Below are positions 3,503 through 10,686 of a DNA stretch of 34,292 bases, piece after piece. The position numbers and the translations under genes are program-made. A model generated the notes under the pieces. That model made no database searches and was not told where the DNA came from. It was given only the letters and a program-made list of their open reading frames with translations. The stretch comes from a virus. How positions within the stretch are numbered: position 1 is the stretch's first letter; each line of letters opens with the position of its first letter. The DNA is taken from the IMG/VR virus record IMGVR_UViG_3300042401_000322, positions 1-34,292 of that record. The stretch is one strand, 5' to 3'.

Positions 3503-3761
3503 ACACCCTGAGATTGTTTACGCACAATACCGACTTGAAACAGGTAATGGCAAGAGTAGAGCATTCCGAGAGTATAACAATGCGTTCGGATTCATCTATA
3601 AACGCAAATTAATGCGATTTAAGAGCGTTTCAGAGTGCGTAGAGTACTACAAGACATGGCAGGCTAAAAGATACGTTAAAGGGGATTATTTCGAATTCCT
3701 AAAAAAGATAGGATACGCAGAGGAAGAGGGTTACATAGAACTATTAAAAAAGATGTTATGA
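3393..3761 (+). CDS. Secreted glucosaminidase-like (GH73-type) endolysin
   Basis: I start it at ATG 3393 rather than the upstream TTG at 3369 because this gives a typical signal sequence: basic MRKITFIK, a hydrophobic stretch through about residue 18, then a polar region. The mature part (122 aa total) has the GH73 N-acetylglucosaminidase pattern: IVYAQYRLETGNGKS with the likely catalytic Glu49, NNAFGF at 62-67, a CVEYYKTWQ helix and a C-terminal IGYAEEEGY motif. It would cut glycan strands of peptidoglycan after export. It overlaps the HTH gene by 110 bases in another frame. It is small but the core motifs are all present. Confidence 0.75.
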   Translation: MRKITFIKPLLLTSFLIASKLSIGQLSLQQIKDKGIKHPEIVYAQYRLETGNGKSRAFREYNNAFGFIYKRKLMRFKSVSECVEYYKTWQAKRYVKGDYFEFLKKIGYAEEEGYIELLKKML

Positions 3762-4009
3762 AAAAACTAATAATTGCAGCATCATTGCTCATGGTAGGAT
3801 GCGCTAAAGAGGAAGTTAAAACGTGCGATTGTTTACGCATAACGGACATAAAACATGATTCGTTGGTATTTTACGAGAATACCGTATACACCGCAGAAAT
3901 AACAACTATAAGCGATTGTACGTTTCTGCAAACAAAAAGGATGTTTAGTAGTGAAATAGAACCCTACAAACAAAACAAAGTCGGTGAATGCTGGCAACCT
4001 CCATTCTAA
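3758..4009 (+). CDS. Small lipoprotein, possible outer spanin
   Basis: ATGA overlap with the lysin-like gene. The N-terminus MKKLIIAASLLMVGC is a classical lipoprotein signal with Cys15 as the lipidated residue. The mature part (about 69 aa) has further cysteines, including CDC right after the lipobox region. A short lipoprotein directly behind an endolysin suggests an outer-membrane spanin-type role, but no inner-membrane spanin partner is obvious. It resembles the lipoprotein at 4422-4646 in size and plan. Confidence 0.65.
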   Translation: MKKLIIAASLLMVGCAKEEVKTCDCLRITDIKHDSLVFYENTVYTAEITTISDCTFLQTKRMFSSEIEPYKQNKVGECWQPPF

Positions 4010-4047: not shown

Positions 4048-4392
4048 TGTAAACTATTTTGTAAAGTTGACAGGTTGACAACATGAAAATAAAAATAAAA
4101 TTGAAAATAAAATTTTAAAAATTGAAAATGCTGTCAACTTGTAAACTAAACGCCCGAAACCCTTGGTATCATTGAATAGTTTGGTTGACAATAGGTTTAC
4201 AAAAGTTGTCAATACATTAAAAAAGTTTACAACTATTATTTAGATTGAATTTAAATTACGATTATTTTAAAATAAATAGAATTTAATTAAAATATAATAT
4301 ATATATTTGTTGACGTGTTAGATCTCATACATAGTAACACTTAAGGTATTTGCCCTGTCAATTTGTAAACGTGAGATCTTTACTTTTTGACA
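4048..4392. repeat. Cluster of GTTKACA heptamer repeats, candidate origin or operator region
   Basis: Within 345 bases there are nine exact copies of GTTKACA (K = G or T) in either orientation, starting at 4048, 4066, 4074, 4132, 4140, 4184, 4195, 4225 and 4364, plus one-mismatch copies at 4060, 4205, 4356 and 4386. Three pairs are direct repeats 8 bases apart (4066/4074, 4132/4140, 4356/4364). A nearly pure A/T block (about 4084-4128) lies between groups, as in iteron-type origins. Apart from the promoter and RNA at 4302-4401 I see no gene in this stretch (4010-4421). Origin or repressor operator are both possible. Confidence 0.65.
4302..4309 (+). promoter_or_regulatory. Promoter -7 element upstream of the structured RNA
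   Basis: TATATTTG matches TAnnTTTG, in the same ATATATTTGTTG context as the promoters at 2186 and 10530. No good TTTG box is seen about 20 bases upstream; the region is A/T only, so an activator or the A/T tract may substitute. The expected start is near 4313, just before the first hairpin. Confidence 0.65.
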
Positions 4393-4401
4393 GGGCTTTT
4401 T
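4313..4401 (+). ncRNA. Predicted structured RNA with complementary hairpin loops (sRNA or leader)
   Basis: Hairpin 1: GTGTTA (4315-4320) pairs with TAACAC (4335-4340). Hairpin 2: GCCCTGTCAA (4352-4361) pairs with TTGACAGGGC (4387-4396), then a TTT/TTT internal loop and an inner GTAAA/TTTAC stem (4365-4369 / 4379-4383). The loop of hairpin 1 contains GATCTCA (4321-4327), perfectly complementary to TGAGATC (4372-4378) in the loop of hairpin 2, giving a 7-bp kissing interaction. Hairpin 2 is followed by five U, so it may act as a terminator. A promoter lies just upstream. This is either a free small RNA of about 87 nt or an attenuating leader for the operon starting at 4422. Confidence 0.55.
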
Positions 4402-4421: not shown

Positions 4422-4646
4422 ATGAAAAAAAAGATTTTAATTTTTAGCATTGCTTTGCCAATGTTAAGTTGTTCAAAAGAACCATCTTCATGTGGTAGAA
4501 TTGTAAGTGATAATGTGCATGAGTATTCTATTACAATTAGAAATTCAAACACTAACAACTTGAAAACTTTTTACCTTACTGAGGGTGATTGGATGAACGC
4601 ACACCCTGGAGATAATTATTGTATCACTAACACAACACAATGGTAG
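4422..4646 (+). CDS. Small lipoprotein (74 aa)
   Basis: The N-terminus MKKKILIFSIALPMLSC is a lipoprotein signal with Cys17 as the predicted lipidated residue. The mature part carries two more cysteines (SSC after the lipobox and YC near the end) and an ITIRNSNTNNLKTFYL strand pair. It shares its plan with the lipoprotein at 3758-4009. It is first in the operon behind the structured RNA; an outer-membrane or superinfection-exclusion role is possible but unproven. It overlaps the start of the helicase-methyltransferase gene. Confidence 0.65.
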   Translation: MKKKILIFSIALPMLSCSKEPSSCGRIVSDNVHEYSITIRNSNTNNLKTFYLTEGDWMNAHPGDNYCITNTTQW

Positions 4647-6832
4647 TTATGGAAGATTACAACAAGTTTTTAGAAACAAAGAAAAAAACATTTATTTCAA
4701 GTGGATTTGAAATAGAAGAAAGTGAATTAAACTCAAACTTATTTGACTTTCAAAAATATGCAGTAAAAACAGCTTTATCAAAAGGTAGATTTGCTTTGTT
4801 CTTTGATTGCGGTTTAGGAAAAACATTAATGCAATTAGAATGGGCTTCAAAAGTTGTTAAAGAAACGAAAGGAAGTGTTTTAGTTCTTACATCGCTTGCA
4901 GTTGTAGAACAAACTAAAAAAGAATTTGCTAAATTTGGAATTGATAATAAAAACATTGATGTTTTAAACTATGATCAATTATCAAATGTAGATTGTTCTA
5001 ATTATACAGGAGTAGTTTTAGATGAAAGTTCTATTTTAAAAAACAACGCTGGTAAAACAAGCCAATTAATAATAGAAAGCTTTAAATCAACACCATATAA
5101 ATTAGCTTGTACTGCAACACCATCACCAAACGATCATATGGAATTAGGTAATCATAGCCAGTTTTTAGGTGCTATGAGTTATTTAGAAATGTTAGCTATG
5201 TATTTTGTTCATGATGGTGGTGAAACTTCTAAATGGAGATTAAGAAAACACGCTAAAGACCCATTTTGGAAGTATGTATCTACATGGTCAATGGCTTGTG
5301 ACAACCCTAAAACATTAGGTTTTAATAATGATGGTTATGATTTACCTGAAATTGAATTTGTAGAACATATTATACCAGTTGAAAACAATACTGAAACTCT
5401 ATTTGGTGATGTTGCTGTTTCTGCTACTGATCTACATAAAGACTTAAATAGATCGTTTGATTTAAGAATAAAAAAAACAATTGAACTTGTTAATTCAAAT
5501 AATAATCAATGGTTAATATGGGGTTTAAAAAATAATGAAACAGATACACTATCAAAACTATTAGATAATAGTGTAAATGTTCAGGGATCAGACAAACCAG
5601 AATATAAAGCAAAATATTTAAATGGATTTGCAAATAATGAATTCCAAACTTTAATTACTAAAACATCTATCGCATCTTTTGGGATGAATTATCAAAATTG
5701 TAATCAAATGGTTTTCATGTCTTATGATTTTAAATTTGAAGCATTTTATCAAGCTGTTAGACGTTGTTATAGATTCGGTCAAAAAAATAAAGTTACAGTT
5801 CATATTTTAATTCCTGAATCTCAAACTAATGTTAGAAGTACAATTTTAGAAAAACAACAAAGACATTTTGAAATGATAAAAGAAATGGCTAAATATTCAT
5901 CAGAAAATGATTACAAATCAAATAAATCAAAAGTTATGATTAATAAAAAAGAAATAAAAACAGAAAACTATCATTTATTAAATGGTGATTGCGTCCAAGA
6001 AATTAAAAAAATTGAAGAAAATAAAGCTGATATAGTTGTTTTTTCACCTCCATTTGCTGAATTATATGTTTATTCAGATAAAGAGGAAGATATGGGAAAT
6101 GTAAGCGATTACAAACAATTTGAACAACATTTTAAATATTTAATACCTGAATTAAAAAGAGTTTTAAAACCCGGTAGAATTTGCGCTATTCATTGCATGG
6201 ATTTACCAATTCAAAAAGGTAAAGAAGGTTATATTGGGTTAAGAGATTTTAGCGGCATGATAACAGAATGGTTTAAAGAACAAGGTTTTATTTATCATTC
6301 ACGTGTTACAATATGGAAAAATCCAGTAACAGAAATGCAAAGAACAAAAGCATTAGGTTTATTACATAAGACAATAAAAAAAGATAGCTCAATGACAAGA
6401 GTAGGTATACCTGATTACATTTTATTTTTTAGAAATGAAGGTGATAATTTAGTTCCAATTACTCACCAAGATAAAGATCAAAGTAAAAGCGATTATTTAC
6501 CAGTTGATTTGTGGCAAAAATACGCATCTCCAGTATGGTATGATATTGATTATAGTAGAACATTACAATATAGATCAGGGCGTGATGGGAATGATGAAAA
6601 ACATATATGCCCATTACAATTAGATACAATAGAAAGAATATTACATTTGTATTCAAATGAAGGTGAAACTGTATTAAGCCCATTTGGAGGTATTGGTAGC
6701 GAGGGTTTTTGCGCGTTAAAAATGAACAGAAAATCTATATCGATTGAATTAAAAGAAAGTTATTTTTCTATTAATCAAAAAAACCACAAAGACTGCATAG
6801 ATGAAAAAAACTCTATATTAACACTTTTTTAA
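4640..6832 (+). CDS. SF2 (SNF2-like) helicase fused to a DNA methyltransferase
   Basis: The 730-aa protein has two parts. Residues about 35-410 form an SF2 helicase: Walker A DCGLGKT (56-62), a Walker B variant LDESS (127-131), TATPSPND (158-165) and motif VI QAVRRCYRFGQ (371-381). Residues about 440-715 form an amino-methyltransferase: motif IV SPPF (469-472), then at the C-terminus HICPLQ (655-660) and motif I PFGGIGSEG (681-689), an order typical of beta-class N4/N6 enzymes. No nuclease motif was seen, so self-modification of phage DNA with translocation is more likely than restriction. Codon use is more AT-rich and CG-poor than its flanks, suggesting separate acquisition. An in-frame ATG at 4649 is an alternative start. 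Confidence 0.85.
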   Translation: MVVMEDYNKFLETKKKTFISSGFEIEESELNSNLFDFQKYAVKTALSKGRFALFFDCGLGKTLMQLEWASKVVKETKGSVLVLTSLAVVEQTKKEFAKFGIDNKNIDVLNYDQLSNVDCSNYTGVVLDESSILKNNAGKTSQLIIESFKSTPYKLACTATPSPNDHMELGNHSQFLGAMSYLEMLAMYFVHDGGETSKWRLRKHAKDPFWKYVSTWSMACDNPKTLGFNNDGYDLPEIEFVEHIIPVENNTETLFGDVAVSATDLHKDLNRSFDLRIKKTIELVNSNNNQWLIWGLKNNETDTLSKLLDNSVNVQGSDKPEYKAKYLNGFANNEFQTLITKTSIASFGMNYQNCNQMVFMSYDFKFEAFYQAVRRCYRFGQKNKVTVHILIPESQTNVRSTILEKQQRHFEMIKEMAKYSSENDYKSNKSKVMINKKEIKTENYHLLNGDCVQEIKKIEENKADIVVFSPPFAELYVYSDKEEDMGNVSDYKQFEQHFKYLIPELKRVLKPGRICAIHCMDLPIQKGKEGYIGLRDFSGMITEWFKEQGFIYHSRVTIWKNPVTEMQRTKALGLLHKTIKKDSSMTRVGIPDYILFFRNEGDNLVPITHQDKDQSKSDYLPVDLWQKYASPVWYDIDYSRTLQYRSGRDGNDEKHICPLQLDTIERILHLYSNEGETVLSPFGGIGSEGFCALKMNRKSISIELKESYFSINQKNHKDCIDEKNSILTLF

Positions 6833-6834
6833 TT

Positions 6835-9057
6835 ATGATAACTAAAGATTATTTAAAGAAACTTTCATCAATAGGGTATAGTATTATACCCTGTGATGAA
6901 ACTAAAAAACCAATATGTGTATGGAAAGAGTATCAAAGTAAAAACCGTACAAGCGATGAAATCGAGTTATTAAATAGTCCTAAATACGGACTTGTAACAG
7001 GTTTTAATGATTTAGAGGTTATAGATGTAGACTTAAAAGTTATAGCAACGGTAAGCGAAAAAAAACAATGGTGGGATGAATACCTTGCATTTCTTTGTGA
7101 TAACATTGTTGATTTTATGGATAAGGTTGTTATATCAAGGACACAAAGCGGAGGCTATCACATTCTGTACAAGTCAAAAACTATTGTTGGAAATACAAAG
7201 ATAGCAAAGCTTGAAGGTATGACAGAGGCAATAATTGAAACAAGGGGTGTTGGTGGCTTTGTAGTTATTTATGATAACTTTCTAACTGAAAAAGAATATC
7301 ACCAAATAGATTATATTACTGAAGAAGAAAGAGAAATAATATGGTCTATTTCAAAAACTTATAATTATGAAAGTCCTGAAACATTAGAGCTACCTAAAAA
7401 GTCAGAGTACATTGTAGAGAATGAGATTACACCATGGGAAGACTATAATAATAAACATTCAGTATTTGACATTATTGACGATGAATTTACTATTGTTAGG
7501 AATACACAAAATTCTTATGTAATCAAAAGACATGGAGCAACAAGCCCACATTCAGGATATGTATTTAAAAATACAGGATGCTTATTTCTATTTACAACAG
7601 GTACACAATACCCAAATGAAAAGTTATTAAGTCCATTTAACTTATATACTATCAGATACCACAATGGAGATTATACAGCTTCAGCAAGTGAAATCTATAA
7701 AAAAGGTTATGGAAGTAGAGTAGTAAAAGAAGTTGAATCAATACGTAAAGAAGTAGTATTGAACCAAGAAGACTTAACTTTTCCTTTAGATATATATCCT
7801 GACAATATTAAAAACTATCTGTTAGAATGTAACAGGACATTAAATAGTTCAATTGACTACATGGGTTGCGCTTTCATGTGGGTACTTTCTGTAATTATCG
7901 GTAACTCAATAAAGGTGCAAGTGAAAACCGGATGGATTGAATCAGTTAATATGTGGTTGGCTTTGGTTGGAAAACCTGGAGTCGGTAAAACGCCGAACAT
8001 TGAAAACGTAATTTTCCCATTACACAAAGCAAATAGTAATGAGATAAAGAGCTACATTAAAAAAATGACTGCCTTTGAGAAATATCAAGAGTTGGATAAA
8101 AAAGAAAAGGAACGTGTTGAAGAACAAAAAGAACCTAAAAAAACTCAGTTTATCGCAAATGACATTACACTTGAAGCCCTTATTGATCTACATTCAGAGA
8201 ATAAAAATTCTATAGGTGTGTTCAAAGATGAGTTGTCAGGATGGTTAAAGGATATGAATAAATATAGGGCTGGATCAGATTTAGAGTTTTGGTTATCTAC
8301 ATGGTCAAATAAGGGTGTTTCATTGAATAGAAGGACATCAAAAAACGCTTTTATAGAAAGTCCAATCATCCCTGTTTTGGGAGGTATACAGCCGGGTATT
8401 TTAAATGGTTTTTTTAGTACTGAAAACAAAGACAACGGTTTTGTAGATAGGATGCTAACATGCTATCCTGATGTAAAGATTGAAGAATTTAGCGATGCTG
8501 AAATGGATGAACAAGTACACGAATGGTATAATAGTTATATTTTAAATTTTTACGATAAGATTAAAAAAGACTATGTGTTAAAAGATACTGAAGATGAAAT
8601 TGTTTCACACGTTGCACTATTAAGTCCAGAAGCGAAAAAGGAATACATAAGAATAGATAAAGAAATTACAGCAATTCAAAATTCTGACATCGAAAACGAA
8701 TACATGAAAAGTATGTTACCGAAACAAAAATCTTATATTCCAAGGTTTGCACTAATGTTAAACGTATTGTACGCACATGAAAACACATCAAATAGCATGT
8801 TTATTATATCAAAGGAATCAATGTTAGCTGCTGAAAAATTAAGTAAGTATTTTATTAACATGGCTAAAAAGATTAAGATTGATAGTGTTGAAGTAGGAGA
8901 ATTAAAACAAGTTATTAGCAATAACAAAACTAAATCTAAAAAAGAGCAAATAGCTGAAGCATATAAATTAAATCCTGAGTTTAATAAAAGAGAATTAGCT
9001 GAATTATTAGGTATAAGTAGACAAAGAGTTTATAACGTATTAAATGAAATAAAATAA
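6835..9057 (+). CDS. Prim-pol / DUF3987 helicase-primase with C-terminal HTH
   Basis: The 740-aa protein starts with a bifunctional primase-polymerase domain: IPCDETKKP near residue 18, YGLVTG (51-56), the metal-binding VIDVD (62-66) and SGGYHILY with His109. A DUF3987-type P-loop ATPase follows, with Walker A GKPGVGKT (379-386) and a VFKDELSGWL Walker B-like segment further on. The last 25 residues form an HTH (KRELAELLGISRQRVYNVL). It would prime and unwind DNA at the phage origin. It lies two bases after the helicase-methyltransferase and is coupled to the next gene by TAATG. With no other DNA polymerase seen in the genome, its prim-pol domain or the host polymerase must do synthesis. Confidence 0.85.
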   Translation: MITKDYLKKLSSIGYSIIPCDETKKPICVWKEYQSKNRTSDEIELLNSPKYGLVTGFNDLEVIDVDLKVIATVSEKKQWWDEYLAFLCDNIVDFMDKVVISRTQSGGYHILYKSKTIVGNTKIAKLEGMTEAIIETRGVGGFVVIYDNFLTEKEYHQIDYITEEEREIIWSISKTYNYESPETLELPKKSEYIVENEITPWEDYNNKHSVFDIIDDEFTIVRNTQNSYVIKRHGATSPHSGYVFKNTGCLFLFTTGTQYPNEKLLSPFNLYTIRYHNGDYTASASEIYKKGYGSRVVKEVESIRKEVVLNQEDLTFPLDIYPDNIKNYLLECNRTLNSSIDYMGCAFMWVLSVIIGNSIKVQVKTGWIESVNMWLALVGKPGVGKTPNIENVIFPLHKANSNEIKSYIKKMTAFEKYQELDKKEKERVEEQKEPKKTQFIANDITLEALIDLHSENKNSIGVFKDELSGWLKDMNKYRAGSDLEFWLSTWSNKGVSLNRRTSKNAFIESPIIPVLGGIQPGILNGFFSTENKDNGFVDRMLTCYPDVKIEEFSDAEMDEQVHEWYNSYILNFYDKIKKDYVLKDTEDEIVSHVALLSPEAKKEYIRIDKEITAIQNSDIENEYMKSMLPKQKSYIPRFALMLNVLYAHENTSNSMFIISKESMLAAEKLSKYFINMAKKIKIDSVEVGELKQVISNNKTKSKKEQIAEAYKLNPEFNKRELAELLGISRQRVYNVLNEIK

Positions 9058-10537: not shown

Positions 10538-10586
10538 TTGTATAATTCTTTGACGTACTAATAAAACAAGTAGAGCCTTTGGGCTG

Positions 10587-10662
10587 GTAGGGATGCGTAA
10601 TGAGGCAAGGTGCCAAATCCTGTTAAGGTTGATTAAGGTGGGTTCGATTCCCACTCCCTACC
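10587..10662 (+). tRNA. tRNA-Asn-like gene, anticodon GTT
   Basis: The acceptor stem GTAGGGA (10587-10593) pairs with TCCCTAC (10655-10661), and the helix extends two more pairs outward. The T arm is perfect: GTGGG, loop TTCGATT, CCCAC (10638-10654). The anticodon loop CTGTTAA (10620-10626) has GTT at 10622-10624, as in tRNA-Asn. Weak points are a D stem with wobble pairs, a mismatch at the outer anticodon-stem pair, a six-base variable region, C at the discriminator position and no encoded CCA. It could be a working divergent tRNA or a tRNA-like decoy. It sits alone behind its own promoter. Confidence 0.65.
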
Positions 10663-10686
10663 ACTAACTATAAAACACAAAAAACA

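Follow-up and report, generated by a model that had tools for sequence, protein, structure and literature searches.

The stretch of DNA analyzed here (the window, the 34,292 bases of an IMG/VR virus record) encodes a predicted leader RNA of approximately 87 nt in which the loop of a terminator hairpin pairs with the loop of a hairpin at the 5' end. This RNA belongs to a phage family of about 60 distinct sequences with >25 loop words, and comparison of its members supports the placement of the promoter, the two hairpins with the kissing helix that joins their loops, and the gene context. We regard the fold, two hairpins with loop-loop pairing, as all but certain from the aligned sequences. For the function, our working interpretation, which we hold at about even confidence, is that the family consists of cis-acting conditional intrinsic terminators (attenuators) heading early or replication operons. 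The family is new in its anatomy, a terminator loop kissing a 5' hairpin; the kind itself is known.

The kissing-loop RNA was confirmed on the plus strand at window positions 4314 to 4401 by sequence, folding, architecture scan, and alignment. All elements listed by the first-pass annotation (two hairpins with 7-base complementary loops, a TAnnTTTG element, a 10-bp stem, and a U run) were found at the coordinates it had given. A TAnnTTTG -7 box of the flavobacterial sigma-A type (TATATTTG; 4302 to 4309, plus strand) precedes the RNA. In F. psychrophilum this box lies at -12 to -5 (PMC9723704), and with the same spacing +1 is expected at approximately 4314. The starts of the first hairpin (H1) are in keeping with this position, as H1 begins at +1 or +2 in 36/62 unique family members and at +2 in the window. 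H1 (4315 to 4340) has a 6-bp stem (GTGTTA at 4315 to 4320 and TAACAC at 4335 to 4340) and contains the loop word L1, GATCTCA (4321 to 4327), which forms the first half of the kissing helix. An A-rich linker of 11 nt (TTAAGGTATTT; 4341 to 4351) leads to the terminator hairpin (4352 to 4396), which consists of a 10-bp outer stem (GCCCTGTCAA at 4352 to 4361 and TTGACAGGGC at 4387 to 4396), a TTT/TTT internal loop, and a 5-bp inner stem (GTAAA at 4365 to 4369 and TTTAC at 4379 to 4383). Its loop holds the second half of the kissing helix, the loop word L2, TGAGATC (4372 to 4378), a perfect complement of L1. The U run of the intrinsic terminator (T5; 4397 to 4401) is retained in most relatives, not all. 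Thus, as in an attenuator leader, a G+C-rich hairpin with a U run lies between the promoter and the first gene. The window RNA had a folding z-score of -3.8, with 1/200 shuffled sequences equally stable. Its minus strand folds about equally well, as expected for hairpins, and the plus strand is fixed by the promoter, the U run, and the downstream gene. Across the family, the complement between the terminator apical loop and the first loop is 7 to 9 nt long and the linker is 10 to 38 nt long.

BLAST with the RNA region alone returned no homologues among named phages. Because the primary sequence is too variable for BLAST, homologues were reached through the neighboring helicase-methyltransferase gene and through the architecture. 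The gene led to 50 viral loci, several of which share the layout with other loop words. The architecture was sought with a pseudoknot-aware scanner, which accepted a locus only if the TAnnTTTG box was accompanied by H1, by a terminator ending in a U run, and by a kissing word at least 6 long. In 975 kb of related phage DNA (both strands) it gave 30 matches at a score of >=26, a score reached by none in shuffled copies of the same DNA; the window scored 31.5. Applied to 1.4 Mb of viral and cellular contigs, most of them unrelated, the scanner recovered only more phages of the window-RNA type. The scanner was tuned on visible examples, and the later pattern tests therefore weigh more. No match at the gathering score was obtained with the Rfam 15 covariance models for the window or 15 related loci, and permissive Rfam searches gave only low-scoring, chance-level matches. 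Literature searches of open-access text found no description of the present RNA.

A blind test used the type B pattern (GTAATGAAGTNNNNNGCATTAC), in which H1 is specified except for five loop bases and the second hairpin is unconstrained. The pattern matched 27 viral loci, 25 of which have an exact 8-nt complement downstream, with five loop words (GTGAGACG, GTGAGAAG, GTGGAACG, GTGGAAAG, and GTAGAGAG); the other two are chance matches with no downstream complement. A related pattern matched 38 cellular loci in GTDB genomes, none of them (0/38) with a complement. In the type B alignment (18 RNAs), 99.6% of cells are paired and 12/26 pairs changed on both sides; covariation as high as the real value was seen in 0/500 shuffles, and pairings slid out of register were only 30 to 45% paired. 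The window subtype was aligned as six distinct RNAs with the window as the first sequence. Here, 100% of cells are paired and six pairs changed on both sides, including three of the seven pairs of the kissing helix, in which no pair breaks; GATCTCA/TGAGATC is exchanged for GGTCGGA/TCCGACC in otherwise near-identical RNAs. The first-pass annotation had predicted a compact RNA of about 87 nt with kissing loops behind a TAnnTTTG promoter and had proposed a search of homologues for compensatory changes; both the downstream complements and the covariation in the two subtypes bear out that prediction. The low variation of H1 is uninformative, as H1 was fixed by the search patterns. The motif A[AG]A..TT occurs in 34/62 linkers, compared to 10.9 expected from shuffled linkers, a count over sequences that are related and not independent. 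Linker length was not correlated with hairpin length (r = -0.16), and since the two are uncoupled, the linker does not decide between intramolecular and intermolecular kissing.

The first-pass annotation considered such an RNA unusual for a phage leader. However, it recurs in many flavobacterial phages, where it stands at the heads of gene clusters. Carriers include FCL-2, FCOV-F46, and FCV-1, the Muminvirus-group phages morran9-1, snusmum9-1 (two copies), filifjonk9-1, and mumin6-1, and the Cellulophaga phages phi19:1 and phi10:1. Several phages hold two copies of the RNA with differing loop words. The LMO phages except laban6-1 have been described as virulent (PMC7077304). No copy was found in cellular genomes with the subtype A and B patterns, and a protein scan of GTDB genomes found no relative. 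The type B covariance model, which barely recognizes other subtypes, found none in 399 genomes of one family, a result that is uninformative because no more than ten candidates were scored in each genome and the search there lacked a positive control. When as many as three mismatches were allowed, seven matches to the type A pattern were obtained in 399 genomes, and they look like chance.

In the window, the first gene behind the RNA is a small lipoprotein-like open reading frame of 74 amino acids (4422 to 4646, plus strand), which begins 25 nt past the terminator stem and is followed by a helicase/DNA methyltransferase fusion of 730 amino acids (4640 to 6832, plus strand). The helicase/DNA methyltransferase gene lies directly behind the RNA in several relatives. 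The distance from the end of the terminator stem to the next ATG has a median of 21 nt and is <=35 nt in 45/61 cases. Among TAnnTTTG promoters, the only type searched for, a second box between the RNA and the ATG was present in 3/61, equal to upstream control stretches. The short distance and the near absence of a second TAnnTTTG promoter indicate that the downstream gene is mostly reached by readthrough. The RNA had been tied to the lipoprotein/helicase-methyltransferase operon in the first-pass annotation, but the same RNA stands before many different genes: one subtype precedes genes for helicase-methyltransferase, primase-type, and replisome-organizer-like proteins, HNH endonucleases, and small proteins. 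Because these genes are unrelated, no gene-specific signal is visible. The window RNA contains no ATG for a leader open reading frame. A leader peptide was rejected for types A and B as well, where the ATGs, read by eye, give unlike or two-codon peptides.

The U run is present in 16/19 type B RNAs. In the other three (FCV-1, L145, and L141) it is degenerate or lost, with both hairpins and the kissing helix kept, suggesting that the fold may matter apart from termination. The loci noted for this combination are L141, L055 (9879 to 9972), and L145. Behind the terminator, a 5'-untranslated-region motif, TAATAGTTATCGGTAATCTTAAAACC, was noted at L128 (10458 to 10486) and elsewhere, before small proteins in unrelated phages.

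In full-length RNAs, the terminator was the best nested fold in 57/60, and the extended nested pairing of L1 with L2 beat it in 0/46; for the window, the predicted energies are -14.6 kcal/mol for the nested L1:L2 pairing and -25.6 kcal/mol for the terminator. According to the folding model, L1:L2 can coexist with the finished terminator only as a kissing pseudoknot. At the nascent stage at which L2 has emerged but the 3' arm is still to be made, L1:L2 was the predicted best nested fold in 56/60. L1:L2 pairing would thus be an early folding step and no competitor of the finished terminator. The natural order would be H1, then L1:L2, and then the terminator, an order that is partly expected from any perfect complement of 7 to 9 nt. 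It had been proposed that a longer pairing could break the terminator and switch the RNA between states; the early pairing in nascent RNA agrees with this proposal, but a pairing that overcomes the full terminator does not occur in the predictions.

A conditional terminator acting in cis is the most economical function for an RNA with its own promoter, a terminator just before a gene, and no second promoter, although we put its probability no higher than an even call. The first genes are in line with this reading, as they include those for helicase-methyltransferase, primase-type, and replisome-organizer-like proteins, and attenuation, one of the roles suggested by the first-pass annotation, remains the best one. 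In the proposed mechanism, polymerase would start at the host sigma-A promoter, and H1 would be made at once. Once the upper half of the terminator hairpin has cleared the polymerase, L2 would pair with L1. As the 3' arm emerges, the terminator would zip up and the transcript would end about 20 nt before the first gene unless there is interference. Termination would leave a compact product of about 85 nt, held together by a kissing helix of 7 to 9 bp, and the operon would be expressed through readthrough. We infer that only a regulated fraction of transcripts terminates and that the timing of folding and the stability of the RNA are tuned by the kissing helix. Readthrough could be modulated by a trans-acting RNA, by a protein, or by the speed of polymerase. 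Should its level be set by the kissing helix, the terminator's own loop would be the sensor of this attenuator. The analysis adds a strongly supported RNA family to phages whose gene regulation is almost unstudied, and its presence in cultured systems (Flavobacterium sp. LMO9 with Muminvirus, Cellulophaga phi19:1, and FCL-2) makes the proposal directly testable.

Classical attenuators and riboswitch leaders are promoter proximal, have an intrinsic terminator just before the first gene, and form an earlier pairing that precedes the terminator. The RNA described here is similar in the first two respects and is predicted to be so in the third. In contrast to them, no leader peptide is shared among the subtypes and no ligand junction was seen. 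Since the early helix pairs with the loop of the terminator and not with its arms, the early helix and the terminator are not mutually exclusive. The pRNA of phi29 likewise contains a pair of loops that complement each other and vary in sequence from phage to phage. In pRNA, a three-way-junction scaffold presents loops that join one molecule to another (PMC5340915), whereas the present RNA has two hairpins, a linker of 10 to 38 nt, and a terminator, and is found at operon heads with no tie to packaging genes. Given the two-hairpin fold and the position at replication-type operons, we did not assign it to the pRNA class.

A different use of the same features would be a stand-alone small RNA, in which the terminated 85-nt transcript is itself functional, with RNAs or proteins of the host or the phage as its targets (decoy and counter-defense roles included), and with the gene served by leaky readthrough. 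The RNA does have its own promoter and its own strong terminator, its structure is constant while the neighboring genes vary, and the kissing helix persists where the U run decays. However, the near-fixed short distance to the start codon and the lack of a second promoter are not in favor of this explanation, and the loop words show no excess of extra sites in phage genomes (6, compared to 14.8 expected). We therefore consider it unlikely, though worth keeping in view.

The loop words vary freely and always match, and phages with two copies carry unlike words, as would be seen if the RNA recognized itself. Both loops of the accumulated short RNA would then pair with those of a nascent leader from the same phage (a double kiss), so that readthrough is set by genome copy number. 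Antisense RNAs of plasmids and the CI RNA of P4 exert comparable control. Neutral compensatory drift of an intramolecular helix yields the same pattern, however, and the observation on two-copy phages has no statistical power, and we hold this explanation to be doubtful. Equally speculative is its extension to flavobacterial phages in general, in which the complementary loops would be a freely changing identity tag, the RNA from sibling copies would set the expression of the replication operon, and paralogous copies or phages bearing different tags would not interfere. If loops do act between molecules, they would constitute a copy-specific RNA tag system, and what plasmids achieve with copy-control RNAs would be achieved in phages with an RNA built from a terminator loop. 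The P4 CI and P1 c4 RNAs are short leader RNAs of replication operons with internally complementary segments and premature termination; they function in the immunity of temperate elements as processed or antisense RNAs that terminate the operon transcript in trans. The present leader RNA is similarly short with internally complementary segments, but its complementarity is between the loops of two neighboring hairpins, and some carriers are described as virulent (PMC7077304), indicating that lysogenic immunity is not its use there.

The putRNA of HK022 (putL/putR) is a cis-acting nascent RNA of about 70 nt with two stem-loops by a phage early promoter (PMC9378689). By analogy, the nascent leader could act on RNA polymerase and confer resistance to its own or later terminators. 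The RNA resembles putRNA in its size, its two stem-loops, its place directly at the promoter, and the irrelevance of the downstream gene. In contrast, the second hairpin here has the canonical form of a terminator, most members have a U run behind it, and it is joined to the first hairpin by a covarying kissing helix. The putRNA suppresses termination through the zinc-binding domain of the polymerase beta' subunit and has no terminator of its own at its end, and the text consulted describes no loop-loop pairing between its hairpins (PMC9378689). No sequence relation to putRNA was found, and we judge such a role to be very unlikely.

The first-pass annotation also raised an origin RNA, which fits some loci only. 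In the window, eight GTTKACA/TGTMAAC words (4048 to 4231), a possible operator or origin, adjoin the RNA and lie outside it. The window holds 26 GTTKACA words in total, these eight within 184 bases just upstream of the RNA promoter, and a ninth near the RNA lies inside the terminator hairpin (4364 to 4370). The relatives L007 and L011 have different repeats upstream of the RNA in the same place. With replication genes downstream, these repeats would suit an RNA acting as a replication primer or in copy control. However, most members lie directly behind a coding gene with no repeat region like that of the window, and several phages have two copies, which makes an origin RNA highly improbable. 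Finally, although a 7-base complement by itself would be weak evidence, chance complementarity beside an ordinary terminator is already refuted by the 30 versus 0 scan matches, the covariation, and the blind pattern test, and its probability is negligible.

Several minor features were noted in the window and its relatives. The extended promoter TATATATATTTGTTG has a second copy in the window at 2179 to 2196, before the genes from 2219 on, with no RNA behind it. A lipoprotein-like open reading frame at 3758 to 4009 weakly matches the PHROG for Cor superinfection exclusion (E value of 4e-4), and a tRNA-Asn gene is located at 10586 to 10664. The helicase-methyltransferase fusion of the window corresponds in snusmum9-1 (L057, 9166 to 12231) to two genes, one for each protein, that flank an endonuclease gene. 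In type A RNAs, the terminator internal loop, AGUA/GAA (L103, about 8160 to 8200), resembles the sarcin-ricin (bulged-G) motif, and other subtypes have different internal loops at this place.
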